Source of the DNA: Nocardioides panacis
Lineage (GTDB): Bacteria > Actinomycetota > Actinomycetes > Propionibacteriales > Nocardioidaceae
Assembly (NCBI RefSeq): GCF_019039255.1
Contig: NZ_CP077062.1
Span: 3,348,001-3,412,000 of the forward strand
Direction: 5' to 3'
Length of the DNA stretch: 64,000 bases
Part shown: piece by piece, positions 5,704-20,653 of the stretch
Position numbering within the stretch: position 1 is the stretch's first letter
How the letters are laid out: the number at the start of each line of letters is the position of its first letter
Made by a program: the position numbers and the translations under genes
Notes under the pieces: generated by a model
Told to the model about the DNA's origin: nothing
Databases searched by the model: none
Seen by the model: only the letters and a program-made list of their open reading frames with translations

Positions 5704-5711
5704 GACCCGCC

Positions 5712-6938
5712 TCAGCTTCCCGCGCGCAGGCCGGCGAGCGGGTTCTCGTCGCAGGCCTTGTCGGGCGGACGGCGGGTCAGCGTCAGCGGCACCGGCGCGT
5801 TGCGGACCGTCCCGGTGTGCGAGTGGTCGCCGGAGGACTGCGGTCGCTCGACCACCACCTCGCCGGCGTTGCCCTTCACGCACTCGGGGTCCGGGCCGTC
5901 GAGCGGCAGGCCGGTGAAGAACTTCGCCGCCATGCAGCCGCCCCGGCACGAGTCGTAGGCCGAGCACTTCGTGCACGCGCCGCCGGTCTGCGGGCTGCGC
6001 AGCTCGGTGAACAGCTCGGAGTGCTTCCACACGGTGTCGAAGTCGGTCACCGCACCCGGGGTGTCGCGCACGTTGCCGGCCTTGAACCGGTCGTGGATCG
6101 CGAACGGGCAGGCGTAGACGTCGCCGACCGGGTCGACCAGGCAGACCACCCGGCCCGCGCCGCAGAGGTTCAGGCCGGGCAGCGCCTCTCCGTAGGCGGA
6201 GAGGTGGAAGAACGAGTCGCCGGTGAGCACCTGGTCGCCGTTGGCGATCAGCCAGTCGTAGAGCTCGCGCTGTTGCTCCGGGAGCGGGTGCAGCTCCTCC
6301 CACACGTCCGCCCCGCGACCCGAGGGGCGCAGCCGGGTCAGCCGCAGCTGGGCGCCGTACCGGTCGGCGATGGCCTTGAAGTCGTCGAGCTGGCCGATGT
6401 TGTGCCGGGTGCAGACCACCGACATCTTGAAGTCCTTCATGCCGGCCGCCTGGAGGTTGGCCATCGCCCGCATCGCGGCGTCGTAGGTGCCGGCGCCGCG
6501 GACGTGGTCGTTGACCTCGGCGGTCGCGCCGTCCAGCGAGATCTGTACGTCGACGTAGTCGGTCGCCGCGAGCTTGGCGGCCCGCTCCGGGGTGATCCGG
6601 AACCCGTTGGTGGAGAACTTCACGCCGACGTGGTGGTCCACGGCGTAGTCGAGCAGCTCCCAGAAGTCCGGCCGCACGGTGGGCTCGCCGCCGCCGATGT
6701 TGACGTAGAAGATCTGCATCCGCTCGAACTCGTCGATGAGCGCCTTGCACTCGTCGGTGGACAGCTCGTCGGGGTCGCGCCGTCCGGAGGAGCTCAGGCA
6801 GTGCACGCACGCCAGGTTGCAGGCGTAGGTCAGCTCCCAGGTCAGGCAGATCGGCGCGTCCAGGCCCTTCTCGAACTGGTCGATCAGCCGGCCCGGAGCG
6901 GGCGGCGGCGAGGCGGGTCGTTGGGCGAGGATCGTCAT
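5712..6938 (-). CDS. mftC: Mycofactocin radical SAM maturase MftC
   Basis: A 408-residue radical SAM/SPASM enzyme that acts on the MftA C-terminus, oxidatively decarboxylating the terminal tyrosine and then joining it to the preceding valine. The SAM-binding cluster motif CNLACVHC gives Cys40, Cys44 and Cys47, followed by the GGEP motif (NIGGGEPTVRP). The C-terminal SPASM region holds further cysteines in CGAGRVVCL, YACPFAIHD and CTKCSAYDSCRGGC, for auxiliary iron-sulfur clusters. ATG at 6938 overlaps the mftB stop (ATGA). This is one of the best-supported calls of the window. Confidence 0.96.
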   Translation of the reverse strand: MTILAQRPASPPPAPGRLIDQFEKGLDAPICLTWELTYACNLACVHCLSSSGRRDPDELSTDECKALIDEFERMQIFYVNIGGGEPTVRPDFWELLDYAVDHHVGVKFSTNGFRITPERAAKLAATDYVDVQISLDGATAEVNDHVRGAGTYDAAMRAMANLQAAGMKDFKMSVVCTRHNIGQLDDFKAIADRYGAQLRLTRLRPSGRGADVWEELHPLPEQQRELYDWLIANGDQVLTGDSFFHLSAYGEALPGLNLCGAGRVVCLVDPVGDVYACPFAIHDRFKAGNVRDTPGAVTDFDTVWKHSELFTELRSPQTGGACTKCSAYDSCRGGCMAAKFFTGLPLDGPDPECVKGNAGEVVVERPQSSGDHSHTGTVRNAPVPLTLTRRPPDKACDENPLAGLRAGS

Positions 6939-7216
6939 GCGGGGTCCCTCCTGCTGATCATGCCGCCGGTCGCGAGACCCTCCAGCGCGGCGACGTACGC
7001 CGGCCAGTGCGGCTCGGGCACGCCGGCGTCGGTGAGGGCCGCCTCGACCGACGGGCTCTGCTCGAGGCGCCGGACGACGTCGACGAGCTCGGGGGTCTTG
7101 AGGAAGCTGAGCTTGCGGGTGCCGAAGTGGTAGGCGAGCGCGCCGAACGGCTCGGGGCGCAGCGCCACCGAGCCGTCCAGCCGCCACTGCTCGGCGAGCA
7201 TGGTGGAGGTCGGCAT
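6935..7216 (-). CDS. mftB: Mycofactocin precursor chaperone MftB
   Basis: A 93-residue RiPP recognition element protein of the PqqD type. It binds the MftA leader and presents the peptide to MftC. The sequence around WRLDGSVALRPEPFGALAYH matches the family's beta-strand-rich N-terminus, and the C-terminal half is the helical part. The start ATG at 7216 uses the last base of the mftA TGA (TGATG), and the stop overlaps mftC, so A, B and C are translationally coupled. Confidence 0.93.
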   Translation of the reverse strand: MPTSTMLAEQWRLDGSVALRPEPFGALAYHFGTRKLSFLKTPELVDVVRRLEQSPSVEAALTDAGVPEPHWPAYVAALEGLATGGMISRRDPA

Positions 7217-7563: not shown

Positions 7564-8856
7564 ATGCAGGTTGACGAGCTACTCAAACCGTTCCCGATCA
7601 AGGAGTTCCACCCGTTCCCGCGGGCCCTGATGGGTCCCGGTGCCCACGAGATGATCGGGCCGGAGGCACTCAAGCTGGGGTTCAAGAAGACCCTGGTGAT
7701 GACGTCCGGCCTGCGCGGCTCGGACATCGTGCACAAGATCGTGGAGTCGATGAAGTACCACGGCCTCGACGTCGTGGTCTACGACAAGGTCGAGTCCAAC
7801 CCCAAGGACTACAACGTCATGGACGCGGTCGGTCTCTACAACGAGAACGCCTGCGACTCGTTCGTCTCGATCGGCGGCGGCTCCTCGCACGACGCCTGCA
7901 AGGGCGCCCGCGTCTCGGTCGCGCACGACGGCCGCAACGTGAACGAGTTCGAGGGCTTCAACATGTCCGAGAACCCGAAGAACCCGCCGCACATCGCGGT
8001 GTCCACGACGGCCGGCACCGGCTCGGAGACCTCGTGGGCCTACGTCATCACCGACACCACGACGGACCCGGACAACCCGCACAAGTACGTCGCCTTCGAC
8101 GACGCCTCGGTGACGACCCTGGCGATCGACGACCCGGTGCTCTACTACTCGTGCCCGATCGACTACACCGCGCAGTGCGGCTTCGACGTCCTGGCGCACG
8201 CCAGCGAGCCCTACGTCTCCAGGCTGAACTTCCAGCCCTCGCTGGGCAACGCGCTGCACGCGATCAAGCTGACCAACGAGAACCTCCGGGCGGCCGTCTG
8301 GAACGGCGAGGACCTCGCCGGCCGCGAGGGCATGATGTACGCGCAGTACATCGCCGCCCAGGCGTTCAACTCCGGCGGTCTCGGGATCATCCACTCGATC
8401 TCGCACGCGGTCAGCGCGTTCTACGACACCCACCACGGCCTGAACAACGCCGTCGCGCTGCCCCGCGTGTGGGCGTTCAACATGCCGGTCGCCTACAAGC
8501 GGTTCGCCGACATCGCCCGGGCGATGGACATCGACACGCACGGCATGAACGACGTGCAGGCCGCCGAGGCCGCGCTCGCTGCGGCGATCCGGCTGCTGCG
8601 CGACGTGGGCATCACCGAGAAGTTCACCGACGTGACCGCCGACAGCTACTCCAAGAACCGGCTCGGGCAGGGCCCGACGAAGTTCTACGAGAACTCCAAG
8701 GTGATCACCGGCGACGACGCCGACGTCGACCGGATCACCAAGCACGTGCTCGGCGACGCCTGCACCCCGGGCAACGCCAAGGAGTGCACGTTCGAGACCG
8801 TGCGTCCCGTCGTGGACCACTGCATGAACGGCGACCTGGACGACCTGCTCGGCTGA
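7564..8856 (+). CDS. mno: NDMA-dependent (nicotinoprotein) methanol dehydrogenase
   Basis: A 430-residue iron-family alcohol dehydrogenase of the actinobacterial methanol:NDMA oxidoreductase type. Such enzymes keep NAD(P) bound and need an external acceptor, in vivo thought to be mycofactocin. The sequence shows the cofactor-binding block SIGGGSSHDACKGAR, STTAGTGSE, and metal-ligand regions CGFDVLAHASEPYVS, HSISHAVSAFYDTHHG and GLNNAVALPRV. Start is ATG 7564 with AGGAGG five bases ahead. It faces mftA directly and precedes an AAA+/VWA pair, the arrangement known in mycobacteria. Substrate range (methanol versus other short alcohols) cannot be fixed from sequence. Confidence 0.92.
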   Translation: MQVDELLKPFPIKEFHPFPRALMGPGAHEMIGPEALKLGFKKTLVMTSGLRGSDIVHKIVESMKYHGLDVVVYDKVESNPKDYNVMDAVGLYNENACDSFVSIGGGSSHDACKGARVSVAHDGRNVNEFEGFNMSENPKNPPHIAVSTTAGTGSETSWAYVITDTTTDPDNPHKYVAFDDASVTTLAIDDPVLYYSCPIDYTAQCGFDVLAHASEPYVSRLNFQPSLGNALHAIKLTNENLRAAVWNGEDLAGREGMMYAQYIAAQAFNSGGLGIIHSISHAVSAFYDTHHGLNNAVALPRVWAFNMPVAYKRFADIARAMDIDTHGMNDVQAAEAALAAAIRLLRDVGITEKFTDVTADSYSKNRLGQGPTKFYENSKVITGDDADVDRITKHVLGDACTPGNAKECTFETVRPVVDHCMNGDLDDLLG

Positions 8857-9053
8857 CCAGTCCACCCGTCACCCACGGGCCCGCACCACCCGCACCACCA
8901 GCACTGCCAGCACCACCCCTCGCACCCGTGTGCTCCGACGACGGTGACCGGACGTGACCGGAAGGTCACTCTTCGTCACCGTTGTCGGGGCACGGTCCAC
9001 GGGGGGGACAGTGGAGAGACGACGCACAGCACCCGCACCCACGAAGGAGCACC
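8857..9053 (+). promoter_or_regulatory. mno 3' region and AAA+/VWA operon promoter region
   Basis: Right after the mno stop lies ACCCGTCACCCAC (8864), related to the family A repeat. At 8942-8980 there are two GTGACCGG direct repeats and a reverse GGTCAC. The 13-mer CGGGGCACGGTCC at 8986-8998 is identical to that upstream of the MetE-like gene. AAGGAG at 9044-9049 serves the GTG at 9054. Regulatory meaning is inferred. Confidence 0.45.
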
Positions 9054-10232
9054 GTGACCGACGACGACTTCGCCGACGTGGCAGCCACCAAGGACCAGCT
9101 CGCCGAGTTCGGCTACCTGTCCGACGACCGGCTCGCCACCACGGTGTTCCTGCAGTCCCGGCTCGGCAAGCCGCTGCTGCTCGAGGGGCCGGCCGGCGTC
9201 GGCAAGACCCAGCTGGCCACCACGCTGGCCCAGGCCACCGGGCGCCGGCTGCTGCGGCTGCAGTGCTACGAGGGTCAGGACGAGTCCAAGGCGCTCTACG
9301 AGTGGGACTACGGCAAGCAGCTGCTCTACACCCAGATCCTGCGCGAGAAGATCGGCCAGGTCGTCGAGGACGCCGTCGACCTCAACGAGGCCGTCGAGCG
9401 GATCGCCAAGCAGGACAGCGTGTTCTTCTCCGAGCGCTTCCTGGCACCCCGGCCGCTCCTGGAGGCCATCACCTCCGAGCAGCCCGTCGTACTCCTGATC
9501 GACGAGGTGGACCGCGCCGACGAGGCCCTCGAGGCGGTGCTGCTCGAGCTCCTGTCGGAGTGGCAGATCTCGATCCCCGAGATCGGCACGGTCACGGCGA
9601 AGGTGCTGCCGTACGTCGTCCTGACCTCCAACAACACCCGCGACCTGTCGGCGGCGCTCAAGCGGCGCTGCCTGCACATGTTCCTGGACTACCCGACCGC
9701 CGAGCGCGAGCTGGCGATCGTCCGCTCCAAGGACACCGGGCTGCCCGAGGCGCTCGCGGTCCGGCTCGTCGAGATCGTCCGCGGTTTGCGCGAGCTGGAG
9801 CTGCGCAAGGCGCCGAGCATCTCCGAGACCATCGACTGGGCCCGCACGCTCGCGGTCCTCGGGGTCAGCGAGCTCGACGGCGAGGTCCTCGGCCAGACCC
9901 TCAACGTGGTCGTGAAGTACGAGCGCGACCTGCGCCGGGCGACCGAGGCGCTGCCCCGCCTGGTCGACCCGAACGCCACCGTCCCGGACTCCGTGGGCGG
10001 TCACGGCCACGGCCACGGCCACGGGCACAGCCACGACGACGGCGACGTGGACGGCCGCGCCAAGCGGGCCGCCAAGGACGAGCCGGGCCGGCACGACGAG
10101 AACTACTACGGCGCCCCCCGGCGGCGGGCCGGCGGTCCGCACCTCGGTCAGCGCCGAGAAGGGCCAGCGGTCGTTCGCGCGCGGCGCCCGCAAGCGGCCG
10201 GTGTGACCACGGCACCGAGGGGCGGGAGGTGA
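9054..10232 (+). CDS. MoxR-type AAA+ ATPase with His-rich segment
   Basis: A 392-residue MoxR-family ATPase. Walker A is GPAGVGKT (45-52) and Walker B is VVLLIDEVDR (Asp150/Glu151). MoxR proteins act with VWA partners as chaperones that insert metals or cofactors, as CoxD/CoxE do for CO dehydrogenase. Unusually, residues 317-327 form an alternating HGHGHGHGHSH run with six histidines, a likely metal-binding tail. The last ~60 residues are low-complexity and arginine-rich. The GTG start has AAGGAG at good spacing, and the VWA gene follows after five bases. Position behind mno suggests activation or metal loading of that dehydrogenase; this is inference. Confidence 0.88.
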   Translation: MTDDDFADVAATKDQLAEFGYLSDDRLATTVFLQSRLGKPLLLEGPAGVGKTQLATTLAQATGRRLLRLQCYEGQDESKALYEWDYGKQLLYTQILREKIGQVVEDAVDLNEAVERIAKQDSVFFSERFLAPRPLLEAITSEQPVVLLIDEVDRADEALEAVLLELLSEWQISIPEIGTVTAKVLPYVVLTSNNTRDLSAALKRRCLHMFLDYPTAERELAIVRSKDTGLPEALAVRLVEIVRGLRELELRKAPSISETIDWARTLAVLGVSELDGEVLGQTLNVVVKYERDLRRATEALPRLVDPNATVPDSVGGHGHGHGHGHSHDDGDVDGRAKRAAKDEPGRHDENYYGAPRRRAGGPHLGQRREGPAVVRARRPQAAGVTTAPRGGR

Positions 10233-10237
10233 GCTAG

Positions 10238-11767
10238 GTGGAGGGAGCACTGCACCGGTTCGTCCGGCTGCTACGGCTGAGCGGGATGCGCGTCAGCGTC
10301 TCGGAGGCGATCGACGCCATGCACGCGACCGCGCAGCCCGGCGTGCTCGCCGAGCGGGAGCTGCTGCGCTCGGCGCTGACCGCGACCCTGGTCAAGGACC
10401 GCCGCGACGTGGAGACCTTCGACCGGGTCTTCGACCGGTTCTTCGGGCTCAGGGCGGTCGTGCCCGCCGAGGAGGAGGGCCACTCCCACGCCCACGACGA
10501 CCTGTCCGACGACGGCGAGCTCGAGCAGTTCACGCTCTCCGACAACCCCGGCGACAACCCCGAGCAGGGCCACTCGCACGGCAAGCCCAGCGACCTGAAG
10601 GAGTACTTCGACCCCGAGGACATGGCCCAGCAGTACAACCTGCACCAGGAGGCCAACCGCCTCGACATGTCCGCGCTCACCGACGAGATCGTGCTGTCGA
10701 ACGACACCAAGGACAGCCGGGGCGAGGCGGCCCGGGTGCAGCTGTCCACCAACCGCATGCGCAACCCGGGCAACCCCGGCGACCTGACCGCGAGCCCGGG
10801 GCTGGAGATCGACACCGAGCTGAGCGTCGCCGAGGAGATGGCGCTGTTCGACTGGCTGGCCGACAACCTGCCCGACGAGGCCGACATCGACGTACCGGAG
10901 AACATCGCCGCCCTACGCGCCGCCCTCGCGCCGCTGCTCGCCGGCCTCCCCGAGCGGCTGCGCGACCACCTCCAGCGGCTGCTGTCGGTGGAGAAGGAGA
11001 TCGAGACCCGGCAGATCGAGGCGGCCCGTGCCGAGACCCTCGACGAGGCCGAGCGCGCCGACCTCGAGGAGTCGCTGCGCCGGCTGCTGCGCAGCCTGCA
11101 CGGCGCGCCGCGTCCCAAGCGCGCGATCGCCGCGCAGGGCGTGGTCGACGGACGGCGCACGATGCGCGCGAACATGAAGTACGACGGGGTGCCGTTCCGC
11201 CCGGTGACGGTGCGCAAGGTCGAGGACCGGCCGCGGCTGCTGGTGCTGTGCGACGTCTCGCTCTCGGTCCGCAACACCGCCCGCTTCACGCTGCACCTCG
11301 TGCACAGCCTGCAGTCCGTCGCCGCCCAGGTGCGCAGCTTCGCGTTCGTCAAGGACATGGTCGAGATCACCGACCTGTTCGCCGAGCACCGGATCGAGGA
11401 CGCGCTGTCGCTGGTGCTCGCCGGGTCCCCCGCCGGCGGGATGCTCGACGTCGACGCGGACTCCGACTACGGCACCGCCTTCGAGCAGTTCCTCGAGCAG
11501 TACGGCTCGGCCGTCACCCGTCGTACGACGCTGCTGGTGCTCGGCGACGGCCGCGGCAACGGCAACGACCCGCGGGTGCCGGTGTTCGAGGAGCTCGCCC
11601 GGCGGGCCCGGCAGACCGTGTGGCTCACCCCCGAGCCGCGCTACTCCTGGGGGCTCGGCCGGTGCGACCTGCCGGCCTACGAGGAGTACTGCGACCGGGT
11701 GCAGGTGGTCCGCAACCTGCACGGGCTGGAGAAGGCGACCACCTCGATGTCGGGGGGCGGCGGATGA
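10238..11767 (+). CDS. CoxE-like VWA-domain protein with His-rich patches
   Basis: A 509-residue VWA protein that would partner the preceding MoxR ATPase. The C-terminal VWA domain has a MIDAS motif DVSLS (Asp339, Ser341, Ser343). The N-terminal half includes an acidic low-complexity stretch with two histidine clusters, GHSHAHDD (His82, 84, 86) and GHSHGK (His112, 114). This mirrors the His run of its ATPase partner and points to metal handling. Start is GTG 10238 after GGGAGGTGAG; its stop overlaps the methyltransferase ATG (ATGA). Function as a dehydrogenase maturation factor is inferred from CoxE/MoxR precedents. Confidence 0.87.
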   Translation: MEGALHRFVRLLRLSGMRVSVSEAIDAMHATAQPGVLAERELLRSALTATLVKDRRDVETFDRVFDRFFGLRAVVPAEEEGHSHAHDDLSDDGELEQFTLSDNPGDNPEQGHSHGKPSDLKEYFDPEDMAQQYNLHQEANRLDMSALTDEIVLSNDTKDSRGEAARVQLSTNRMRNPGNPGDLTASPGLEIDTELSVAEEMALFDWLADNLPDEADIDVPENIAALRAALAPLLAGLPERLRDHLQRLLSVEKEIETRQIEAARAETLDEAERADLEESLRRLLRSLHGAPRPKRAIAAQGVVDGRRTMRANMKYDGVPFRPVTVRKVEDRPRLLVLCDVSLSVRNTARFTLHLVHSLQSVAAQVRSFAFVKDMVEITDLFAEHRIEDALSLVLAGSPAGGMLDVDADSDYGTAFEQFLEQYGSAVTRRTTLLVLGDGRGNGNDPRVPVFEELARRARQTVWLTPEPRYSWGLGRCDLPAYEEYCDRVQVVRNLHGLEKATTSMSGGGG

Positions 11768-12679
11768 CCAGCGACGTGGTCGCGCCGATCGACCCGCTGA
11801 CCCCGACCGTGGGGGGCCGCTACGAGGACCCGCTCGTGGTCGTCGAGGCCGCGCACGGCGCGCGCCGGCCGGCCACCGGTCGGACGGTCCGCACGGGGCA
11901 CTTCGACCTGACCCCGCGGGACGGGCGGGCGCACGTCACCCACGTCGTCCCCGCCGAGGCCGTCGACGACGACCTGGCCGGGCTGCTCCAGGACGAGCTG
12001 TTCGGGCCGGGCTGGCTGCGCGGCGCCGACCTCTTCGAGCGGGTGTTCACCGGCGTCGTACGCACGAGTGCGCCGGACCCGCTGGACAGCTGGGAGCTGT
12101 TCTACCGCAACACGCTGCGCCGTCTCGCGGACGCCGGGCCGGCAGCCACGGCGGACGGCCCGCGGGGCTCGCACGGCTCGATCGCGGGCTACGCCCCGGT
12201 GCACGACCACGTGCTGGAGCTGCTGGCGCCCGGCTCGGTGCTGGAGCTCGGCTGCTGCTTCGGCTTCCTCGCGCTGCGGATCGCCGCCACCGGGCGGACG
12301 ACGAAGGCCTCCGACGTCTCGCCCGGGACGGTGCAGCTGCTCGCCAGCATCGCCCCGCGGCTGGGGCTGCGTCTCACCACCGAGACCGCCGACGCGGCAC
12401 GGTTCCCGGCCGAGGACGGGTGCGCCGACACGGTGTTGGCGATCCACCTGCTCGAGCACCTCGAGCCCGGCCACGGCAGCCAGGTGGTCGCCGAGGCGCT
12501 GCGCCTGGCCGCGCGGCGGGTGGTGATCGCCGTACCCCCTGGAGGACGAGGCCAACGAGACCTACGGGCACGTGCGCACGGTGAGCCTCGACGACCTGCA
12601 CCGCTGGGGCCGCAGCACCGGCCGCCCCTACGACGTGCACGAGTTCCACGGCGGCTGGCTGGTCATCGACGCCCCCTGA
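11764..12679 (+). CDS. mftM: MftM-like mycofactocin methyltransferase, frame broken by one C
   Basis: A SAM-dependent methyltransferase whose position beside mno, the AAA+/VWA pair and a MnoSR-like system matches mftM of mycobacteria, which methylates the mycofactocin glucose chain. The SAM-binding motif is VLELGCCFGFLALR, followed by DTVLAIHLLEHLEP. The reading frame is lost at the C5 run 12535-12539: with one C removed, translation continues as VPLEDEANETYGHVRTVS and ends at the TGA 12677-12679, giving 304 residues. As given, the downstream frame is not typical coding sequence. Either a sequence error, a recent mutation, or +1 slippage at CCC-C. The stop codon is the first three bases of repeat family B. 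Confidence 0.78.
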
Positions 12680-12830
12680 CCCGGCGCCTCCGGCGGCCGA
12701 GAACCCGCCGACCCGGCGACTCTGGTCGCGCTCCTGCCCGCCACCGCCGCCAAAGGCGCCGGGTGGGCGGGGTTCCGGCAACCAAAGGCGCCGGGTGGGC
12801 GGGGGTTTGGGCGCCAGAGGCGCCGGGTCA
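12677..12830. repeat. Family B stop-codon repeat cluster, copy 1
   Basis: Five units related to TGACCCGGCGCCTCTGGCG fill the gap between mftM and larA: two forward (12677 and about 12709) and three reverse (about 12751, 12783 and 12811-12830). The outermost forward unit begins with the mftM TGA; the outermost reverse unit begins with the larA TGA. Forward and reverse units can form strong hairpins. The same architecture recurs at 30682-30793. A bidirectional terminator is the simplest function. Confidence 0.85.
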
Positions 12831-14111
12831 GGCTACGTAGGGGATGGTCTGGGGGCCTTCGGGGAGGACGCAGACGCGGGCGTCGGGACCACCTCGGTGC
12901 AGCGCCTCGAGCACCGTCTCCGCGACGTCCTCGGTGTGCCCGAGGTGCGCGGTGGCGAGGTCGGCGGCGGACAGGTAGGAGGAGCGCACGACCACGTCGG
13001 CGTGCGACTGCACCTTGGCCTGCACCTGGACCTGCCACTGGTCGGGGACGGTGCGCTCGCGGGCCGCGATGGTCGCGAGCAGCGCCTGCGGGGAGGCCTC
13101 CGAGGCGAGCACCTCGCGGTAGGAGCCGTGGTCGGGGAACCCGTCGCGGCACTCGGCCGCGCAGACGATCGTGCCGCCGCGCTTCACCACCGTCATGCCC
13201 GCCGACATGCCCTTCACCGCCTGGTAGAGGTTCTGGTCGAGCGGGAAGCCCGCGTTGGTGGTGACCACGACGTCGAACAGCGCCGGCACGGGCTGCATCG
13301 CCAGCCGCTGCGACGCCGCCCGGGCGGCCGCGTGCATCGCGGACAGCGTGCCGCCGAACGCCTCGACGATGCGCTGCTCGCGGTTGAGCACCACGTCGAG
13401 CCCGAAGTCGACCTTGCCGACCGCCGCGACCACGGCCCGGATGTCGTCGTGCACCGGGTTGCCCTCGACCACCGCCCAGGTCGCGCGCGGGTCGCCGATC
13501 CGTCGGGCGTCGTGCAGCGTCAGCACGGTCTCGAGCCCCGCGAGGCCGGGCGCGACCAGCTTGGGGCCGCCGCTGAAGCCGGCGAAGAAGTGCGGCTCGA
13601 CGAAGCCGGTGGTGATCCGCACGTCGGCCTCGACCCAGAGCCGGTTCAGGAAGACGGGTACGTCGCGGCCGTGCCGCCCCAGCCACACCAGCGACGCGTC
13701 GTCGCGGGCGTCGTGGTTGACCACCCGGACCCGGTCGGCGGCGTCGCCGAGCATCTGCCGGACCTCCGCGTCGCTGTTGCCCCGGTGCGTGCCGGTCGCG
13801 ACCAGCACGACGACGTCGTCGGGCGACACGATGCCGTCGAGCTCGTCGAGGACCGCCGGGATCATCAGGTGCCGGGGCTGCGGGCGGGTGCCGTCGCACA
13901 TCGAGATCGCGACCGTCTGGCCCGGCTTCACCAGCTCGCGCAGCGGCGGGCCGTCGACGGGGTTCCGCAACGCGTCGCGCAGCAGCCCCGCCTGGTCCTC
14001 GGCCGCCTCGACGTAGGTCGGCTCCACGACCGTCGTACGGTCCGCGGGCAGCTCGACCTCCAGCCCGCTCTCGCCGTAGGCCAGCCGGACGGTCACCGTG
14101 TCCCGAGTCAT
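12828..14111 (-). CDS. LarA-type (nickel-pincer) lactate racemase family protein
   Basis: A 427-residue member of the LarA/DUF2088 family. LarA uses a nickel-pincer nucleotide to interconvert lactate isomers by hydride transfer; many homologues act on other 2-hydroxyacids. Visible family blocks are CDGTRPQPRHLMIPAVLDEL, ATGTHRGN, NHDARDD and HFFAGFSGGPKLVAPGLAG. ATG 14111 is chosen over GTG 14120 because GGTGGAG precedes it at proper distance. It lies 20 bases after the response regulator, on the same strand, suggesting one operon with the two-component system. No larB, larC or larE was seen here for pincer synthesis, so they would have to be elsewhere. Confidence 0.85.
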   Translation of the reverse strand: MTRDTVTVRLAYGESGLEVELPADRTTVVEPTYVEAAEDQAGLLRDALRNPVDGPPLRELVKPGQTVAISMCDGTRPQPRHLMIPAVLDELDGIVSPDDVVVLVATGTHRGNSDAEVRQMLGDAADRVRVVNHDARDDASLVWLGRHGRDVPVFLNRLWVEADVRITTGFVEPHFFAGFSGGPKLVAPGLAGLETVLTLHDARRIGDPRATWAVVEGNPVHDDIRAVVAAVGKVDFGLDVVLNREQRIVEAFGGTLSAMHAAARAASQRLAMQPVPALFDVVVTTNAGFPLDQNLYQAVKGMSAGMTVVKRGGTIVCAAECRDGFPDHGSYREVLASEASPQALLATIAARERTVPDQWQVQVQAKVQSHADVVVRSSYLSAADLATAHLGHTEDVAETVLEALHRGGPDARVCVLPEGPQTIPYVA

Positions 14112-14131
14112 GCTCTCCACCCTTGCACGGC

Positions 14132-14809
14132 TCAGATGACCCCGAGCTTGCTGGCCTCGTAGACCGCCTCCGCGCGGCGGGAGACGCCGAGCTTGCGCAG
14201 GATGTTCCCGACGTGGAACTTCGCGGTCGTCTCGGAGATGTAGAGCCGGGCGCCGATGTCGCGGTTGGACAGGCCGCGGGCGAGCAGGCTGAGCACCTCG
14301 CGCTCGCGGGCGGTCAGCTGCTTGGTCTCCTCCACCGGCGGGGCGTTCAGGCCGCGGACCATGGCGGCGGCGCTGCGGGCGTCGAACGCGCTCTCGCCGC
14401 GGGACACGTCGCGGATCGCCCGGATCAGCGCGGAGGTGTCGACGTCCTTGACGACGTACCCGCGGGCGCCGGCGCGGATGGCCTGCAGCACCAGGTGCTC
14501 GTCGAGGAACGTGGTCAGCACCAGCACCCCGATCTCGGGGTGCTTGCCGGTCAGCTCCTGGCAGAGCTCGAGGCCCTCGCTGTCGGAGGACGTGGAGAGC
14601 TTGAGGTCGAGCAGCACGATCTGCGGGTCCGCGCGGCCGACGACGGCGAGCGCCTCGCTGGCGCTGGACGCCTCGGCGACGACCCGCAGGTCGTCCTCGC
14701 GCTCCAGGATCGAGCGCAGGCCCTGCCGGACGATCGCGTGGTCGTCGACGAGCATGATGCCCACGACGTCGCTACGGGCACTTCGCTGGGACGGGGCGAG
14801 CGTGGCCAT
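14132..14809 (-). CDS. MnoR-like NarL/LuxR-type response regulator
   Basis: A 225-residue response regulator. The receiver domain has the acidic pair Asp22/Asp23, phospho-acceptor Asp68 (VLLDLK), Thr99/100 and Lys121. The DNA-binding LuxR helix-turn-helix spans about 166-210 (LTAREREVLSLLARGLSNRD). Its ATG at 14809 is preceded by GGAGGCC overlapping the kinase stop, so the pair is coupled. In Mycobacterium smegmatis an adjacent kinase/regulator pair (MnoS/MnoR) activates the mno alcohol dehydrogenase; synteny suggests the same role here. Candidate target motifs are described upstream of four transcription units of the island. Confidence 0.87.
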   Translation of the reverse strand: MATLAPSQRSARSDVVGIMLVDDHAIVRQGLRSILEREDDLRVVAEASSASEALAVVGRADPQIVLLDLKLSTSSDSEGLELCQELTGKHPEIGVLVLTTFLDEHLVLQAIRAGARGYVVKDVDTSALIRAIRDVSRGESAFDARSAAAMVRGLNAPPVEETKQLTAREREVLSLLARGLSNRDIGARLYISETTAKFHVGNILRKLGVSRRAEAVYEASKLGVI

Positions 14810-14810
14810 G

Positions 14811-16223
14811 TCAGGCCTCCAACTGGTCGGTGTCGCGGTGCTCGTCGACGGGGTCGCCGACGAGCTCGGTGACCAGGCCCGGAGGGGTCAGGGTCAGCGG
14901 GAGCGGGATGCGCATCTCGACGCGGACGCCGCCGAGCCGGGCGCGGCGGAACGCCAGGCTGCCGCCGAGGTCGGCGATCCGGCTCTCCATGTTGACCAGG
15001 CCGCGGTGCCGTCCGTCGACCATGGTGGCGCGCTCGAGCCGCAGCTTGCGGCTCAGGTCGGTGGGGTCGCCCTCGCCGTCGTCGGCCACGGACACGGTCA
15101 TCTGGTCGGGCCGGTAGCGCAGCCGGACGATCGCCCGGGTCGCCTGCGCGTGGGTGGCCACGTTGAACAGCGCCTCGCCCACGGTCCGGGCGATCTCGTG
15201 GTCGGCGTCGTTGGGCAGCCGGATCACGTCCCCCTCGACGCGCAGCTGCACCTGCAGGTGCGGCTTGTGCTGGTGGGCGACCTCGTGGAGCAGCTCGGGC
15301 AGCGTGGAGACCGTGTCGCGGTGCGGCTGGTGCAGCGCGTAGATCGCCCGGCGGAGCTGCTCGACGGCGTCCTGCGACAGTTTCTTGGCGGTCGCCAGCC
15401 GGGCCAGGATCGAGGACCCCGGCCGTCCCAGCGCCTCCGCCTCGCCGCGGGCGATCTCCACCGCCATCCCGGCGGAGAGGACGTACTGGGTGACGCTGTC
15501 GTGCAGCTCGCGGGCGATCCGGTGCCGCTCGCCGTCGATCAGCTCGCGCTGGTGGGCCAGCAGCAGCCGCTCCTCGACCTGGCGCAGCTCGGCGGTCCGG
15601 TCCGCGAGGTTGCGGGCCTGGGCGGTGGCCTCGTCGTACAGGTGCTGGGCGCGGCGGTGCAGGGCCAGGCCGGCCTGGTACTGCTCGGAGGTGTGCAACG
15701 AGACCGCGGCCTGGTTGGCCAGGATCCGCAGCACCGACAGGTCGCCGGGCTCGGGGTCGACCTGGAGCCGGTGCTGGGCGACCAGGCTGCCCACCGTGCG
15801 GCCCTCGAGGGTCATCGGCACCCGGATCCAGCCGTTCTTCTCGATCACCGGCCGGGTGTGCCCGGCCCGGATCGACTCGAGCTCGAGCTTGACCGGGGTG
15901 GGCAGGTCGTCCTCGTCCACGGTGATGTCGCCGTGCGCGTCGGAGGCCAGGAAGCGCGGCCGGGCGCCGCGCAGGTGGCCGTCGGAGAGCGCCAGCACCG
16001 TCCACTCGGCGTTCAGGTGCGCGGCCGCGGCCCGGACCACCTCCTCGAGCAGCCCGCGGGGGCCCTCGACGGTGCGCACCAGCGCCCGGGAGATCGAGTC
16101 CATCGCGCGCACCGCGTGCTGCATCCGCTCGTCGGAGCGGACGTAGGCGCGGTAGTAGGACGTCTTGCCGGAGCGCACCCCGGTGAGGGTGGCCAGGTCG
16201 ATGCGCTGGCGACGGGGGCTCAT
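14811..16223 (-). CDS. MnoS-like soluble sensor histidine kinase
   Basis: A 470-residue kinase with no membrane segment. A GAF-like sensor domain covers about residues 45-180, then a coiled helix and a HisKA_3 domain with phospho-acceptor His241 (RHRIARELHDSVTQYVL). The ATPase domain has an N-box around ALFNVATHA and the G-box VADDGEGDP. Cytoplasmic GAF sensing fits detection of a small internal signal such as an alcohol or redox state (inference). It overlaps closely with the response regulator downstream and lies 16 bases after the iron-family dehydrogenase, so all are likely co-transcribed. Confidence 0.87.
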   Translation of the reverse strand: MSPRRQRIDLATLTGVRSGKTSYYRAYVRSDERMQHAVRAMDSISRALVRTVEGPRGLLEEVVRAAAAHLNAEWTVLALSDGHLRGARPRFLASDAHGDITVDEDDLPTPVKLELESIRAGHTRPVIEKNGWIRVPMTLEGRTVGSLVAQHRLQVDPEPGDLSVLRILANQAAVSLHTSEQYQAGLALHRRAQHLYDEATAQARNLADRTAELRQVEERLLLAHQRELIDGERHRIARELHDSVTQYVLSAGMAVEIARGEAEALGRPGSSILARLATAKKLSQDAVEQLRRAIYALHQPHRDTVSTLPELLHEVAHQHKPHLQVQLRVEGDVIRLPNDADHEIARTVGEALFNVATHAQATRAIVRLRYRPDQMTVSVADDGEGDPTDLSRKLRLERATMVDGRHRGLVNMESRIADLGGSLAFRRARLGGVRVEMRIPLPLTLTPPGLVTELVGDPVDEHRDTDQLEA

Positions 16224-16239
16224 CGGGGCGTCAGCGGCA

Positions 16240-17469
16240 TCAGAGTGCCGCCAGGAAGAGCTTCTCCACGTCGCCGGAGGACGCCGCCCGAGGGTTGGTC
16301 GTCAGGCACGCGTCGTCGAGGGTGTTCAGCGCGAGGCGCGGGATCGCGCTCTCGTCGACGCCGAGCTCCCGCAGGCCCCGGGGTACGCCGACGTCGTCGG
16401 CCAGCTCGCGCACGTGCACGGCGAGCATCTCAGCCGCCTCGCCCGCCGGCACCCCGTCGACCTGCAGGCCGGCGGACCGGGCCAGCTCGACGAACCGCTC
16501 GGGGCTCTCCTGGGCGTTGTAACGGATCACGTGCGGCAGCAGCACCCCGTTGACCACCCCGTGCGGGGCGTCGAGCAGCCCGCCGACCTGGTGGCTCATC
16601 GCGTGGGTGGCGCCGAGGATCGCGTTGGTGAACGCGAGCCCCGCGTTGAGGCTGGCCTGCGCCATCTTGGAGCGCGCGGCCTCCTCCGTGGGACGCAGGA
16701 TCGTGGTGCGCAGGTTCGCGCAGACCAGGCCGACGGCGTTCAGGGCGTGGATGTCGGCCAGCGGGTTGTGGGCCAGCGACACGAACGACTCGATGCCGTG
16801 GGTGAGCGCGTCCAGTCCGGTCGCGGCGTTCAGCCACTCCGGCATCGTCATCAGCAGCCGCGGGTCGGTGATCGAGATGTCCGGCACCAGGGCCCGGCCC
16901 ATGATGGTGATCTTCACCGACCGCTCGGTGTCGGTGACGATGCAGAACTGGGAGACGTCGGCGCCGGTGCCGGACGTGCTGGGGATCATCAGCAGCGGCG
17001 GGATCGGCTTGGCGACCAGGTCGACGCCGCCGTAGTCCAGGATCCGGCCGCCGTTGCCGGACAGGATCGCCACGCCCTTGGCCGCGTCGATGCACGAACC
17101 GCCGCCGAGCGCGATCAGGACGTCGCAGCCCTGCTCGACGTACCGCTCGTAGGCGGCGTGGATCTCGTGGTCCTTGGGGTTCGGCGTGACGGCGGACCAG
17201 ACCACCGGGGCCAGCCGGGCCTCCCGAAGGTGGCCGAGGAGCTCGTCGCACCAGCCGGCCTCGATGATGCCGGGGTCGGTGACGACCATCGGTCTGCGGG
17301 CCCCGAGACGGGCGGCGGAGAAGCCGGCCTCGCCGAGCGAGCCGAGGCCGAACACGACCTCGGGGGCGTGGAACTTGACCAGCGGGGGACGGGGAGCCGG
17401 GGGCTGGGGCTCGTCGTCGCGCTGGGTCGGCAGGTCTGGTTCCGCGATCGACTGCACGGCGCCTCCCAT
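16240..17469 (-). CDS. Iron-family alcohol dehydrogenase (1,3-propanediol dehydrogenase-like)
   Basis: A 409-residue group III alcohol dehydrogenase. It shows the nucleotide-binding ALGGGSCIDAAKG, STSGTGADVSQF, and metal-ligand regions TGLDALTHGIESFVS and HAMSHQVGGLLDAPHG. Start is ATG 17469 with GGAGG seven bases ahead; the upstream TTG at 17472 is rejected. A comparable gene sits next to mnoS in M. smegmatis. Whether it uses free NAD or is a nicotinoprotein feeding mycofactocin is not visible. It heads the minus-strand unit dehydrogenase-kinase-regulator-LarA and is divergent from the zinc dehydrogenase. Confidence 0.88.
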   Translation of the reverse strand: MGGAVQSIAEPDLPTQRDDEPQPPAPRPPLVKFHAPEVVFGLGSLGEAGFSAARLGARRPMVVTDPGIIEAGWCDELLGHLREARLAPVVWSAVTPNPKDHEIHAAYERYVEQGCDVLIALGGGSCIDAAKGVAILSGNGGRILDYGGVDLVAKPIPPLLMIPSTSGTGADVSQFCIVTDTERSVKITIMGRALVPDISITDPRLLMTMPEWLNAATGLDALTHGIESFVSLAHNPLADIHALNAVGLVCANLRTTILRPTEEAARSKMAQASLNAGLAFTNAILGATHAMSHQVGGLLDAPHGVVNGVLLPHVIRYNAQESPERFVELARSAGLQVDGVPAGEAAEMLAVHVRELADDVGVPRGLRELGVDESAIPRLALNTLDDACLTTNPRAASSGDVEKLFLAAL

Positions 17470-17711
17470 CAAGACGCCTCCAAACTACACGCGGGTGGGC
17501 GACACCGGCACCGGTGCGCCGTGACGCGCGCCCGCCGCCGGCGCCATCGTCGTACGCCGATGGCCACACGGTAGGTGGCGGTGCGGGCCGGGTCCCCCGT
17601 CCGCCGAGGGGCACCCACCTGACCGGACGGGTAGGTGCGTCGTCCACCAGGCGGGACCAGACTGCGAGGACCGGTCGAGACGACCTCCCCTGTGCTTGCG
17701 AGGAGCAGCCC
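17470..17711. promoter_or_regulatory. Divergent promoter region of two dehydrogenase operons
   Basis: A 242-base gap between leftward and rightward dehydrogenase genes. It contains GTCCGCCGAGGGGCAC at 17599-17614, closely matched (inverted) in the mftA/mno control region. ACCGGACGGGTAGGTGCG follows at 17622-17639. AGGAG at 17700-17704 is the ribosome site of the zinc dehydrogenase. Operator function for the MnoR-like regulator is inferred. Confidence 0.5.
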
Positions 17712-18827
17712 ATGAAGACCACCGCAGCCGTCGTGTACGAAGCGGGCAAGCCCATCGAGATCGAGGAGCTGGACCTCGACGGGCCCAAGGAGGGCGAGGT
17801 GCTGATCCGCTACACCCACGCCGGGCTGTGCCACTCCGACGTGCACGTGGCGCACGGCGACCTCGAGGCCCGGTTGCCGATGGTGCTCGGCCACGAGGGC
17901 GCCGGGATCATCGAGGAGGTGGGCCCGGGCGTCACCCGGGTCAAGGCCGGCGACCACGTGGTCTGCTCGTTCATCCCGAACTGCGGCACCTGCCGCTACT
18001 GCGCGAGCGGCCAGCAGTCGATCTGCGACATGGGCGCCACCATCTTGGAGGGCTACCTGCCCGGCGAGCGCTTCCCGTTCACCGGCCCGCGCGGCAACTA
18101 CGGCGCGATGTGCATGCTCGGCACCTTCAGCCAGTACGGCGTCATCCACCAGAACTCCGCGGTCAAGGTCGACGACGACCTGCCGCTGGAGAAGGCGGTG
18201 CTCGTCGGCTGCGGCGTGCCCACCGGCTGGGGCGCCGCGGTGAACACCGCGAACGTCCGGCCCGGCCAGACCGTGATGGTCTCCGGGATCGGCGGCATCG
18301 GCATCAACGCCGTCCAGGGCGCGCGGTACGCCGGCGCGAAGTACGTCGTGGCCGTCGACCCGCTGGAGAACAAGCGCGAGAAGGCGATGGAGCTCGGCGC
18401 CACGCACGCGTTCGCCACCGTCGAGGAGGCACAGGAGGTGATCACCGACCTGACCCGCGGCCAGATGGCCGACTCCGCGATCCTCACCCCGGGCCTGATG
18501 ACCACCGAGATCGTGACCGGCGGCTTCAACGCGGTCGGCAAGGGCGGCGTGGTCGTGCTGACCGGCCTGAACAAGGTCATGGAGCCGAACATCCAGCTGC
18601 CCGGCACCGTGATGACGCTCTACCGCAAGTCGCTCAAGGGCAGCCTGTTCGGCGACTGCAACCCGACCGTCGACATCCCGAAGATCCTCGGGCTCTACCA
18701 GTCCGGCGACCTCAAGCTCGACGAGATCATCACCCGCACCTACACCCTGGACCAGGTCCAGGAGGGGTACGACGACCTGCTCGCGGGCAAGAACGTGCGC
18801 GGCGTCGTCGTGCACTCGCACAACTGA
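17712..18827 (+). CDS. NDMA-dependent zinc alcohol dehydrogenase, mycofactocin-linked
   Basis: A 371-residue medium-chain zinc dehydrogenase of the NDMA-dependent class that co-occurs with mycofactocin. The catalytic zinc region is GLCHSDVHVAHGD with GHEGAG; the structural zinc site is CGTCRYCASGQQSIC; the Rossmann turn is GIGGIGINAVQGAR. These enzymes keep NAD bound and cannot use free NAD well. Start is ATG 17712 after AGGAG. An AAA+/VWA pair begins two bases after its stop, echoing the mno locus. Confidence 0.9.
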   Translation: MKTTAAVVYEAGKPIEIEELDLDGPKEGEVLIRYTHAGLCHSDVHVAHGDLEARLPMVLGHEGAGIIEEVGPGVTRVKAGDHVVCSFIPNCGTCRYCASGQQSICDMGATILEGYLPGERFPFTGPRGNYGAMCMLGTFSQYGVIHQNSAVKVDDDLPLEKAVLVGCGVPTGWGAAVNTANVRPGQTVMVSGIGGIGINAVQGARYAGAKYVVAVDPLENKREKAMELGATHAFATVEEAQEVITDLTRGQMADSAILTPGLMTTEIVTGGFNAVGKGGVVVLTGLNKVMEPNIQLPGTVMTLYRKSLKGSLFGDCNPTVDIPKILGLYQSGDLKLDEIITRTYTLDQVQEGYDDLLAGKNVRGVVVHSHN

Positions 18828-18829
18828 TC

Positions 18830-19718
18830 TTGGTCGCTCCCGGACCCGTCCTGGACCGGGCCCGCGAGGTCGAGCTGCTCACCGCCGCGCTGGACGGCGG
18901 TGCGCACGTCCTCCTCGAGGGCCCGCCAGGGACGGGCAAGTCGACGCTGCTGCGGGCCGTCTCCACGGCCCGCTCGGCGCCGTTCCACCTCGTCGAGGGC
19001 AACGCCGAGCTCACGCCCGCGCGGCTGGTCGGGCACTTCGACCCGGCGCAGGTCCTCGCGCAGGGCTACTCCCCCCGACGTGTTCGTCGACGGCCCGCTG
19101 GTGCTGGCGATGCGCGCCGGCGGCCTGCTGTACGTCGAGGAGATCAACCGGGTCCCGGAGGAAACGCTGAACGTCCTGATCACGGTGATGTCGGAGGCCG
19201 AGCTGACGGTCCCCCGGCTCGGGCTGGTGCACGCCGAGGCGGGCTTCCGGCTGGTCGCGGCGATGAACCCGTTCGACGCGGTCGGCACCGAGCGGATCTC
19301 CTCGGCGATCTACGACCGCACCTGCCGGATCTCGATGGACTACCAGTCCGCGGCGACCGAGGCGCAGATCGTCGCGCTGCGGGCCCCCGCCGCCGGGGTG
19401 GCCGACGACTGGCGTGCGCTGGTCGTCGAGCTGGTCCGTCGTACCCGCTCGCACCCGGACGTCCGGATCGGCTCCTCGGTGCGCGGCGCCATCGACATCG
19501 TCGCGATCGCCGGCCGGCTCTGGTCGATGCGCGGCGTGGCTCCCGGGGACTGGCACGCCGGGCTGGACGCGGCGCTGGTCTCGCTGTCGGGACGGATCCG
19601 GATGCACGAGTCGGCCGGGCGGCGTCCCGAGGACGTCGTCCGCGAGCTCTACGAGGCGGTCTTCGGGCCGCCCCCGTCCGACGAGGAGCCCGGCGGGTCC
19701 GACCCGGGGGAAGCCTGA
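18830..19718 (+). CDS. AAA+ ATPase (MoxR/ChlI-like), frame broken by one C
   Basis: An AAA+ ATPase starting two bases after the zinc dehydrogenase, probably at TTG 18830 (no good ribosome site, so the start is uncertain). Walker A is GPPGTGKS at residues 31-38; after the break the Walker B is LLYVEEINRVPEE. The frame shifts at the C6 run 19071-19076: removing one C joins GYSP to DVFVDGPLV and gives about 295 residues ending at TGA 19716-19718. It resembles the I subunit of magnesium chelatase or other MoxR-type chaperones and would act with the VWA protein downstream. Context suggests maturation of the zinc dehydrogenase. Confidence 0.75.
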
Positions 19719-20653
19719 GCCCGCCTCCTCCCCAGCAGGCGGGCCGGCCCCAGCAGCGCAGCAACCCCAAGCAGGACGCGTCGCGCAACCGGACCGTCGG
19801 CCGGTCGACGCTGGCCAAGCACGCCCGGTTCGCCGAGGTCTCCCCCGAGGTCGGGGTGCTCGACGAGCAGGCCCTGGACCGGGCGCTGGCCGCCGACCCG
19901 GACGGCACGCTGGCGCTGGTCGCCGACCTGGTGCACGCCACCGACGAGTCGCTGCGCGCCCGGGCCCGGAAGCTGGCGGCCCGGCTGGTCCTCGACCGGT
20001 CGCGGTCCGGACGCCCGGTGCGCAGCGGCACCGCCCGGCCCCGGCTCGTCCCGGCCGGCCAGGGCGGGGACCTCGACGTCGACGCCTCCCTGGACGGGAT
20101 CCTCACCGCGCGCGGCGAGCGGCGGCCGGCCGACCTCGACGAGCTGGCCGCCCGGGACTGGGGCCGCCAGGACCTCGCGGTGTGCCTGCTGGTCGACGCC
20201 TCGGGCTCGATGAGCGGCGAGCGGCTCGCGGTGGCCGCGACGGTGGCGGCGGCCTGCGCGCTGCGCGCCCCCGGCCAGCACGCCGTGATCGCGTTCGCCG
20301 GCGACGTACGCACGCTGCGGCACCTGCACGGTCAGGACCCCGCGGCCAGCGTCGTCGACCGGGTCCTCGCGCTGCGCGGGCACGGCGTGACCCAGCTGGC
20401 CGACGCCCTGCGCGCGGCGTCGGCCGAGCTGGCCGGGGCCCGGGCCCAGCGCCGGGTCGTGGTGCTGCTCTCGGACTGCCGGCACACCGACGAGGACCCG
20501 CTGCCGGTGGCCCGCACCGTCCCGGACCTGGTGGTGCTTGCCCCGCGCGACGACGCCGAGCAGGCGCACGCGTTCGCGGCGGCGGCCGGGGCCCGGTGCG
20601 CCGAGCTCGACGGGGCCGACAGCGCCCCCGCGCTCCTGCGCGACCTGCTGTGA
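19715..20653 (+). CDS. VWA-domain protein (ChlD-like) partner of the AAA+ ATPase
   Basis: A VWA protein of the magnesium-chelatase D type. The MIDAS motif DASGS is at Asp161 if translation starts at CTG 19715, which would overlap the ATPase stop as CTGA; a GTG at 19856 is the alternative and gives 265 residues, but sequence before it (STLAKHARFAEVSPEVG) looks conserved-like. The C-terminal half is a complete VWA fold. It differs clearly from the CoxE-like VWA at 10238, so the two dehydrogenases have different AAA+/VWA chaperone classes. It ends seven bases before the convergent CPBP gene. Confidence 0.78.
   Translation: MSPPPPQQAGRPQQRSNPKQDASRNRTVGRSTLAKHARFAEVSPEVGVLDEQALDRALAADPDGTLALVADLVHATDESLRARARKLAARLVLDRSRSGRPVRSGTARPRLVPAGQGGDLDVDASLDGILTARGERRPADLDELAARDWGRQDLAVCLLVDASGSMSGERLAVAATVAAACALRAPGQHAVIAFAGDVRTLRHLHGQDPAASVVDRVLALRGHGVTQLADALRAASAELAGARAQRRVVVLLSDCRHTDEDPLPVARTVPDLVVLAPRDDAEQAHAFAAAAGARCAELDGADSAPALLRDLL

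Follow-up and report, generated by a model that had tools for sequence, protein, structure and literature searches.

A candidate frameshifting AAA+/VWA gene behind mycofactocin dehydrogenases of Nocardioides panacis and other Actinomycetota

We analyzed a 64,000-nucleotide stretch of the Nocardioides panacis genome (RefSeq assembly GCF_019039255.1, contig NZ_CP077062.1, positions 3,348,001 to 3,412,000), hereafter the window, in which two dehydrogenases of the N,N-dimethyl-4-nitrosoaniline (NDMA)-dependent type, the iron-family enzyme mno and a zinc enzyme, are each followed by an AAA+ ATPase and a von Willebrand factor A (VWA) domain. We propose, at a probability of roughly 0.6, that the AAA+/VWA pair behind the zinc enzyme (pair 2) is a frameshifting gene whose products would act as an ATP-driven remodeller of mycofactocin nicotinoproteins, and that the pair behind mno (pair 1) more likely aids the acquisition of metal by that enzyme. 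Both arrangements recur in other genomes, and the layout is thus more than chance. Pair 2, which in our sample (at 300 bits or more) was found only in genomes encoding MftC and which lies behind dehydrogenases of either fold, constitutes a concrete candidate for the assembly, reset or mycofactocin coupling of these enzymes.

Gene structure and putative frameshift signals of pair 2

A previous, sequence-only reading of the window described a zinc dehydrogenase followed by an ATPase gene and a VWA gene. The order is as described; the ATPase frame, however, is broken and the VWA domain lies in the −1 frame, and the two are not ordinary genes. In window coordinates, the elements are:

17712-18827, plus strand: NDMA/mycofactocin-type zinc alcohol dehydrogenase (Zn-ADH), ATG start, TIGR03989
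18830-19718, plus strand: second AAA+ ATPase, MoxR-class, encoded in the 0 frame of the frameshift gene proposed here; matches to AAA_5 fall in two frames
19706-19712, plus strand: proposed −1 slippery heptamer G_GGG_GAA, 3 nt ahead of the AAA+ stop codon
19719-19744, plus strand: proposed stimulatory hairpin with an 8-bp stem, GCCCGCCT/AGGCGGGC, beginning 6 nt past the heptamer
19718-20653, plus strand: second VWA domain, −1 frame, with DASGSM (resembling a metal ion-dependent adhesion site, MIDAS), T and SDC motifs; PF13519, PF05762

The dehydrogenase scores 516 bits against TIGR03989 (cut-off 440), is the sole protein over that cut-off in the high-GC, single-contig host genome of 4.9 Mb, and carries motifs that presumably supply its zinc ligands. 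Translation of the second AAA+ probably starts at a TTG located 2 nt past the dehydrogenase stop.

Comparison among loci makes pair 2 resemble a single gene read with a programmed −1 frameshift. In all 63 unfused rows holding both domains, the VWA part is encoded in the −1 frame with respect to the AAA+, which rules out a reading of pair 2 as two ordinary genes, and at 15 loci the two domains are fused in one frame, as confirmed by open frames (the label was given to 16 rows, one of which owes it to the broken frame in the window; the fused frame of L075 stops within its VWA part). The junction count covers 62 of the unfused rows, the first tandem copy of L189 having been dropped as not a true junction. 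The heptamer GGGAAAA lies in phase inside the AAA+/VWA overlap in 45 of these 62, is never found in another phase there, and has a background frequency of 1 in 16,778 codons in AAA+ bodies; all 45 heptamers lie where the VWA frame is already open. Another 14 junctions present GGGGGAA, CCCAAAA or TTTTTTC in phase, from a list made after looking at the sequences. Among intact relatives, Geodermatophilus sp. DSM 45219 (L082) has GGGAAAA, and Amycolatopsis jejuensis (L042) shares GGGGGAA with the window. At L080 the stop was placed too late in the count, and the locus was scored as lacking a heptamer when GGGAAAA is actually present.

Downstream of the heptamer, a stem of at least 5 bp starts exactly 6 nt away in 46 of 59 sequences (background 9.3% per position) and between 5 and 8 nt away in 56 of 59 (background 24.6%), according to a position test that was devised after viewing the structures from a folding-energy test and that proved the sharper of the two. 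The letters of the stem differ among loci and the pairing is kept (GCCCGCC/GGCGGGC, CCCACC/GGTGGG, ACCCCGC/GCGGGGT, GCCGGACG/CGTCCGGC). Its location at +6 nt fits the published spacing, stimulators of −1 frameshifting being described in the relevant part of PMC4066793 as generally beginning 5-8 nt downstream of X_XXZ_ZZN motifs. At L084, L087 and L089, in Actinomycetospora and Pseudonocardia records, the slip site resembles T_TTT_TTC at −43 within high-GC DNA and is followed by a 6-7 bp stem.

It is very improbable that no frameshift occurs and that the VWA part is made separately, by re-initiation at a CTG overlapping the AAA+ stop (CTGA). Such a CTGA is present in the window and in several relatives, with ATGA in L107, and 21 of the 62 loci do hold some ATG, GTG or TTG in the VWA frame, in the interval that runs from 30 nt ahead of the AAA+ stop to the VWA match; the remaining 41 hold none, and in the window there is none within 60 nt of the stop. 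A number of loci, however, close the AAA+ with TAG or TAA, which leaves no overlapping NTG, the 15 fused loci carry both domains in one frame, and re-initiation would leave heptamer, phase, spacing and stem together unexplained. If the frameshift is real, VWA parts may have been missed or mis-annotated, and the “one gene, two subunits” arrangement of chelatase type would extend to a further AAA+ family that uses another slippery site.

In the window, the Walker A motif is out of frame with the remainder of the AAA+ domain, the cause being a single additional base in the C-run at 19071-19076, where same-genus genome G004 and same-family genome G011 are in frame; the extra C may be a sequencing error or a recent mutation. 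The dehydrogenase and VWA frames are open. Codon differences from the same-genus relative tend to fall at third positions and do so less strongly in the VWA part (13, 15 and 26), a bias that does not suggest an old pseudogene and that is compatible with either a sequencing error or a recent mutation.

Association of pair 2 with mycofactocin and its dehydrogenases

The window holds a mycofactocin cluster whose members all pass curated cut-offs (MftD, TIGR03966; MftF, TIGR03965; a short-chain dehydrogenase/reductase (SDR), NF040491; MftE, TIGR03964; MftC, TIGR03962):

1510-7187 (open-frame extent), minus strand: mycofactocin cluster (MftD, MftF, mycofactocin SDR subfamily 4, MftE, MftC)
5865-6884: MftC

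Profile counts were obtained on a sample of 296 Actinomycetota genomes. The search profile for the second AAA+ (A1) was built from three intact relatives, and its threshold of at least 300 bits was set post hoc at a break in the scores, with the next tier at 272 bits or less. At this threshold the second AAA+ occurs at 30 places in 25 genomes. MftC is encoded by 46 genomes and a TIGR03989 protein over cut-off by 43, all inside the 46; the 25 genomes with the second AAA+ carry both without exception (hypergeometric P of 5e-24 for the overlap with MftC and 1e-48 for the nesting of the 43 TIGR03989 genomes within the 46, relatedness being ignored). Weaker matches do occur in genomes without MftC, and the four genomes of the 230-272-bit tier (G099, G089, G347 and G312) have no MftC. 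The link to mycofactocin made by the sequence-only reading for both pairs is hence upheld for pair 2 at this threshold and not for pair 1, as detailed below.

Gene order narrows the association. In 19 of the 25 genomes a copy of the second AAA+ lies within 25 kb of MftC, and in 22 a TIGR03989 dehydrogenase is located directly upstream on the same strand, with 23-147 bp between matches. When tandem copies are counted once, all 28 cassettes directly follow a curated mycofactocin dehydrogenase, which is of the zinc type in 22 and an SDR in six (G303, G156, G327 and extra copies in G108, G264 and G317, with SDRs that pass curated mycofactocin cut-offs). G108, G264 and G317 keep separate copies of pair 2 for the Zn-ADH and for SDRs. 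Pair 2 had been taken to be dedicated to the zinc enzyme; the SDR-linked cassettes rule out a zinc-specific role.

A second survey covered named genomes, one per species, in 84,980 species, and considered the best 80 of 229 loci. Among these 80, 52 are actinobacterial at 50-68% identity and the other 28 reach at most 37%. The 52 include Amycolatopsis jejuensis, Geodermatophilus, Modestobacter, Blastococcus, Pseudonocardia, Kribbia, Leekyejoonella, Aciditerrimonas and several Acidimicrobiia. In the inspection of neighbouring genes, from which six loci duplicating others were dropped, a Zn-ADH lies upstream in 38 of the 52 (37 within 300 bp and one at 356), as identified by tblastn at 45-88% identity to the window enzyme rather than by TIGR03989 score, and an SDR in five, of which those of L061, L068 and L089 are curated mycofactocin SDRs. 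The VWA part follows the second AAA+ in 50 of the 52; the remaining two, L083 and L090, end soon after.

We built a dehydrogenase tree from 61 linked enzymes, 20 unlinked ones, hand-picked from 15 genomes, and eight second copies. It requires at least eight changes between linked and unlinked states, and the linked dehydrogenases do not form a single clade in it. On a quick AAA+ tree (74 labelled rows, with rows below 200 aa dropped and tandem second copies labelled as SDR), switches between zinc and SDR neighbours number two at minimum and SDR-linked rows fall in few groups; as judged from this tree, client type tends to be inherited with the AAA+ machine.

Several loci depart from the common layout. 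Two second-type AAA+ genes stand in tandem behind mycofactocin SDRs in L189 and L190, the second one of L189 being fused to VWA, and two tandem zinc dehydrogenases precede one AAA+/VWA gene in L046, L049, L050, L064, L121, L124 and L125. L061, titled as a Bifidobacterium breve metagenome-assembled genome, which is probably a mislabel, has mftE, mftF and a mycofactocin SDR beside its pair 2 gene. L197 and L198, from the 230-272-bit tier without MftC and thus only distantly related to the second AAA+, each consist of one long frame holding both AAA+ and VWA matches; by eye, their next gene resembles a molybdenum hydroxylase, an unconfirmed likeness, and they may represent an ancestor-like setting.

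Family relations and known systems

Three intact relatives of the second AAA+ all share unchanged GPPGTGKS and YVEE motifs, and the DxSGS, T and D elements of the MIDAS are conserved in the VWA of pair 2. The best solved relatives of the AAA+ are midasin, NorQ (9qh4, E 2e-16), CbbQ (6l1q, E 5e-13) and CobS; those of the VWA are weak matches alone, among them a “conserved protein” and CobT. An earlier description of pair 2 as ChlI/ChlD-like is therefore loose. Eight fused proteins all match both chelatase models; the first of them, L058, stays far below cut-off, with 44 of 500 bits for TIGR02031 and 56 of 779 for TIGR02442, and comes near the cut-off of no NCBIfam model, and the C-terminal AAA+ piece of the window scores 25 and 26 bits against the same two models.

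Pair 2 resembles NorQ/NorD and CbbQ/CbbO in that its AAA+ belongs to the same sequence neighbourhood and a MIDAS-type VWA is encoded alongside. It differs from them in its putative clients, mycofactocin dehydrogenases of two folds, and in that motor and VWA would seemingly come from one frameshifting gene. CbbQO re-activates Rubisco. The NorQD complex inserts metal (PMC13036017, PMC9976466); the metal is iron and the client nitric oxide reductase.

The closest parallel in gene organization is fs-chlD, in which one gene yields an AAA+ protein alone and an AAA+-VWA fusion through frameshifting, mostly −1, and which is reported from actinobacteria and also from some genomes that lack chelatase pathways, as set out in sections of PMC9227772 and PMC5009743. 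The fs-chlD sites presented there are AT-rich, such as A_AAA_AAR, whereas pair 2 has G_GGA_AAA and a GC stem. Since the chelatase models fail by a wide margin, we file pair 2 as working like fs-chlD and not as a member of that family, a separation drawn from the chelatase scores. Among the open-access papers searched we found none pairing mycofactocin with von Willebrand, nor with both MadB and MadC, and in broader searches mycofactocin was absent among the matches listed.

Proposed function of pair 2 and alternatives

Under the proposed reading, a ribosome staying in frame would make the AAA+ motor alone, and one that slips a single base backwards on the heptamer, ahead of the AAA+ stop, would make the AAA+-VWA fusion. 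A single AAA+ ring would probably contain both forms, the VWA part serving as an arm that grips the client, a picture taken from NorQD and CbbQO. The client would be the mycofactocin dehydrogenase encoded directly upstream, of the zinc type in the window and an SDR in some genomes; this link has gene order and co-occurrence behind it, and from these we infer physical interaction.

The SDR fold has no catalytic metal, and the occurrence of six of the 28 cassettes behind SDRs means that metal loading cannot be the shared function of pair 2. Mycofactocin SDRs, where studied, bury a non-exchanging NAD, the release of which would need a large conformational change, according to the portion of PMC5264612 that deals with the cofactor; the zinc enzymes are taken, as nicotinoproteins, to do likewise. 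With clients that differ in fold and in metal, remodelling around NAD or mycofactocin appears likelier than metal insertion. The likeliest work of pair 2 would be ATP-driven opening of the dehydrogenase so that NAD can be inserted or exchanged, dead-end complexes removed, or mycofactocin let in. In its most specific form, as a dedicated activase in which the AAA+ motor and the AAA+-VWA fusion pry open Zn-ADH or SDR clients and seat or reset buried NAD or mycofactocin in the manner of CbbQO, the proposal is tentative and stands somewhat short of an even chance. Were it true, the frequency of slippage would determine how much motor the ring contains relative to adaptor.

Two other roles account for part of the same evidence. 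It is unlikely that pair 2 acts on mycofactocin itself or on its makers, with its position next to dehydrogenases a consequence of a shared cluster. Such a role would be in keeping with the co-occurrence with MftC in all 25 genomes and with the location of pair 2 inside or beside mft genes in L056, L061, L068, L074 and L142-L144, but it sits poorly with the 21 of 46 MftC genomes that are devoid of pair 2, with G088, G108 and G264, where pair 2 is far from MftC yet behind a dehydrogenase, and with the separate copies for Zn-ADH and SDRs in G108, G264 and G317. Unlikelier still is that the second AAA+/VWA puts zinc into the zinc dehydrogenase, as NorQD puts iron into nitric oxide reductase, even though pair 2 stands directly behind the zinc enzyme in 22 of 25 genomes and NorQ is among its nearest solved relatives. 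Besides the six SDR-linked cassettes, this alternative is opposed by the absence of pair 2 from 18 of the 43 zinc-enzyme genomes and by the scarcity of histidine, with at most three residues in any 20 in the matched AAA+ and VWA regions, a count that concerns those regions and not whole proteins and that takes in no other ligands. A dedicated metal- or cofactor-loading step for each dehydrogenase had been suggested from the sequence; as metal loading, it is plausible for pair 1 and unlikely to be the general function of pair 2.

A number of observations weigh against our proposal for pair 2. The AAA+ frame of the window is broken as sequenced. Its heptamer, GGGGGAA, is not a canonical X_XXY_YYZ and re-pairs imperfectly, and in neither L062 nor L076 is any of the heptamers we looked for present. 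Post-heptamer folding energy is mildly unusual, at a median percentile of 0.18 over 59 sequences, with 22 of them at or under the 10th percentile and the window at 0.65. Eighteen of the 43 TIGR03989 genomes, including all ten f7 genomes that have TIGR03989, are without pair 2, which is accordingly not universally required as had been envisaged, and unlinked dehydrogenases sit within linked clades (L219, L221); in those settings the enzyme can evidently do without pair 2. The SDRs of L065 and L071 pass no mycofactocin cut-off, and no dehydrogenase reference matched directly upstream in nine of the 52 named loci: L045, which is at a contig edge and cannot be judged, L056, behind MftE, L072, with an acyltransferase in between, and L069, L070, L074, L081, L084 and L087. 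Finally, all counts are uncorrected for relatedness and include near-duplicates such as L068 and L193.

Pair 1 and mno

The genes of pair 1 and the dehydrogenase ahead of them are:

7564-8856, plus strand: mno, NDMA-dependent methanol dehydrogenase, iron-dependent alcohol dehydrogenase (Fe-ADH) family nicotinoprotein, ATG start, TIGR04266
8982-10232, plus strand: MadB-type AAA+ ATPase, NF047784; start uncertain, GTG at 9054 possible
10238-11767, plus strand: MadC-type, CoxE-like VWA protein containing HSHAHDD as a short segment; PF05762 over cut-off

The sequence-only reading had mno followed by a MoxR-type ATPase and a CoxE-like VWA protein, and the matches to the MadB and MadC models and to PF05762 bear this out. 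The mno protein scores 662 bits against TIGR04266 (cut-off 625) and has the motifs which we take to carry the metal ligands of the family. The MadB and MadC proteins match the NCBIfam models across nearly their full length and sit behind mno, but with scores below both curated cut-offs (370 bits against 475 for NF047784, and 279 against 600 for NF047783); MadB ends in a C-terminal histidine stretch, HGHGHGHGHSHDD. The architecture of AAA+ and CoxE-type VWA (PF05762) is shared with CoxD/CoxE, the client of which is instead a molybdenum-copper enzyme (PMC3471820, PMC4240915). The two pairs of the window are clearly different in sequence, as had been noted: MadB and the intact second AAA+ of relative L013 share 31% identity over 136 aa (E 2e-10), and MadC against the second VWA of the window gives nothing significant (E 0.97).

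In the same 296 genomes, MadC at a threshold of 200 bits or more, again a score gap picked after inspection, occurs at 18 places in 16 genomes, three of which pass the curated MadC cut-off. An mno-like Fe-ADH is present in all 16, the G221 copy being a 112-residue fragment at a contig end, and in 14 of the 15 genomes with an mno beyond that fragment, a single contig holds mno and MadC at a short distance from each other. The exception is G182, where mno and MadB share a contig with no MadC within 5 kb behind them and MadC ends another contig. MftC is found in seven of the 16 MadC genomes and is absent from nine, so MadB/MadC tracks the mno-type Fe-ADH clade and not mycofactocin; TIGR04266 is passed in seven genomes, every one with MftC. 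Examined by co-occurrence, then, each pair associates with its own dehydrogenase class beyond the window genome. Gene order in G299 and G311 is mno-MadB-MadC-ErcA-kinase-regulator, the order displayed by the Mycobacterium smegmatis mno operon in the portion of PMC11303327 describing it. L203 carries two MadC genes in tandem (8939-12167) behind a single mno and a single MadB.

Metal handling by pair 1 is plausible in view of the histidine-rich ends of MadB and of the zinc-responsive M. smegmatis operon. Six of 12 MadB orthologues have 6-11 histidines per 20 residues, and four have four at a short histidine-bearing end. The relevant results of PMC7174638 have MSMEG_6240 (“hypothetical”), MSMEG_6241 (“ATPase AAA”) and MSMEG_6242 dropping together in zur and smtB mutants and in excess zinc, and those of PMC8406134 have MSMEG_6241 going up with MSMEG_6242 in mft mutants; the three genes are assigned here to MadC, MadB and mno from their place in the operon and their annotation rather than from sequence. 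Pair 1 would accordingly go with the mno-type Fe-ADH clade whether mycofactocin is present or not, and would more likely help mno to get its metal. An alternative, to which we give about one chance in three, is that MadB/MadC does not deliver metal and instead remodels the cofactor that mno holds as a nicotinoprotein. In its favour, mno is itself a nicotinoprotein (TIGR04266 is named for NDMA dependence) and midasin and NorQ are among the solved relatives of MadB as well. It is opposed by the histidine-rich ends of ten of the 12 MadB orthologues and by the joint shift of MSMEG_6240-6242 with zinc status (PMC7174638, in the results cited above). The histidine argument has its own limits: MadC, with 2-6 per 20 residues in 12 proteins, is little above the three of pair 2, and MadB has no histidine end in L200 or in L204, the latter from a genome whose MadC passes the NCBI cut-off.

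The minus strand between the two pairs encodes LarA, a MadR-type regulator, a MadS-type kinase and an ErcA-like Fe-ADH:

12828-14120: LarA, nickel-dependent lactate racemase, 523 bits (cut-off 460)
16240-17472: ErcA-like Fe-ADH, 463 bits (cut-off 550)

LarA adjoins MadR/MadS in the window and is also a neighbour in L040, and the ErcA-like gene adjoins MadS, as it does in the mno operons of G299 and G311.

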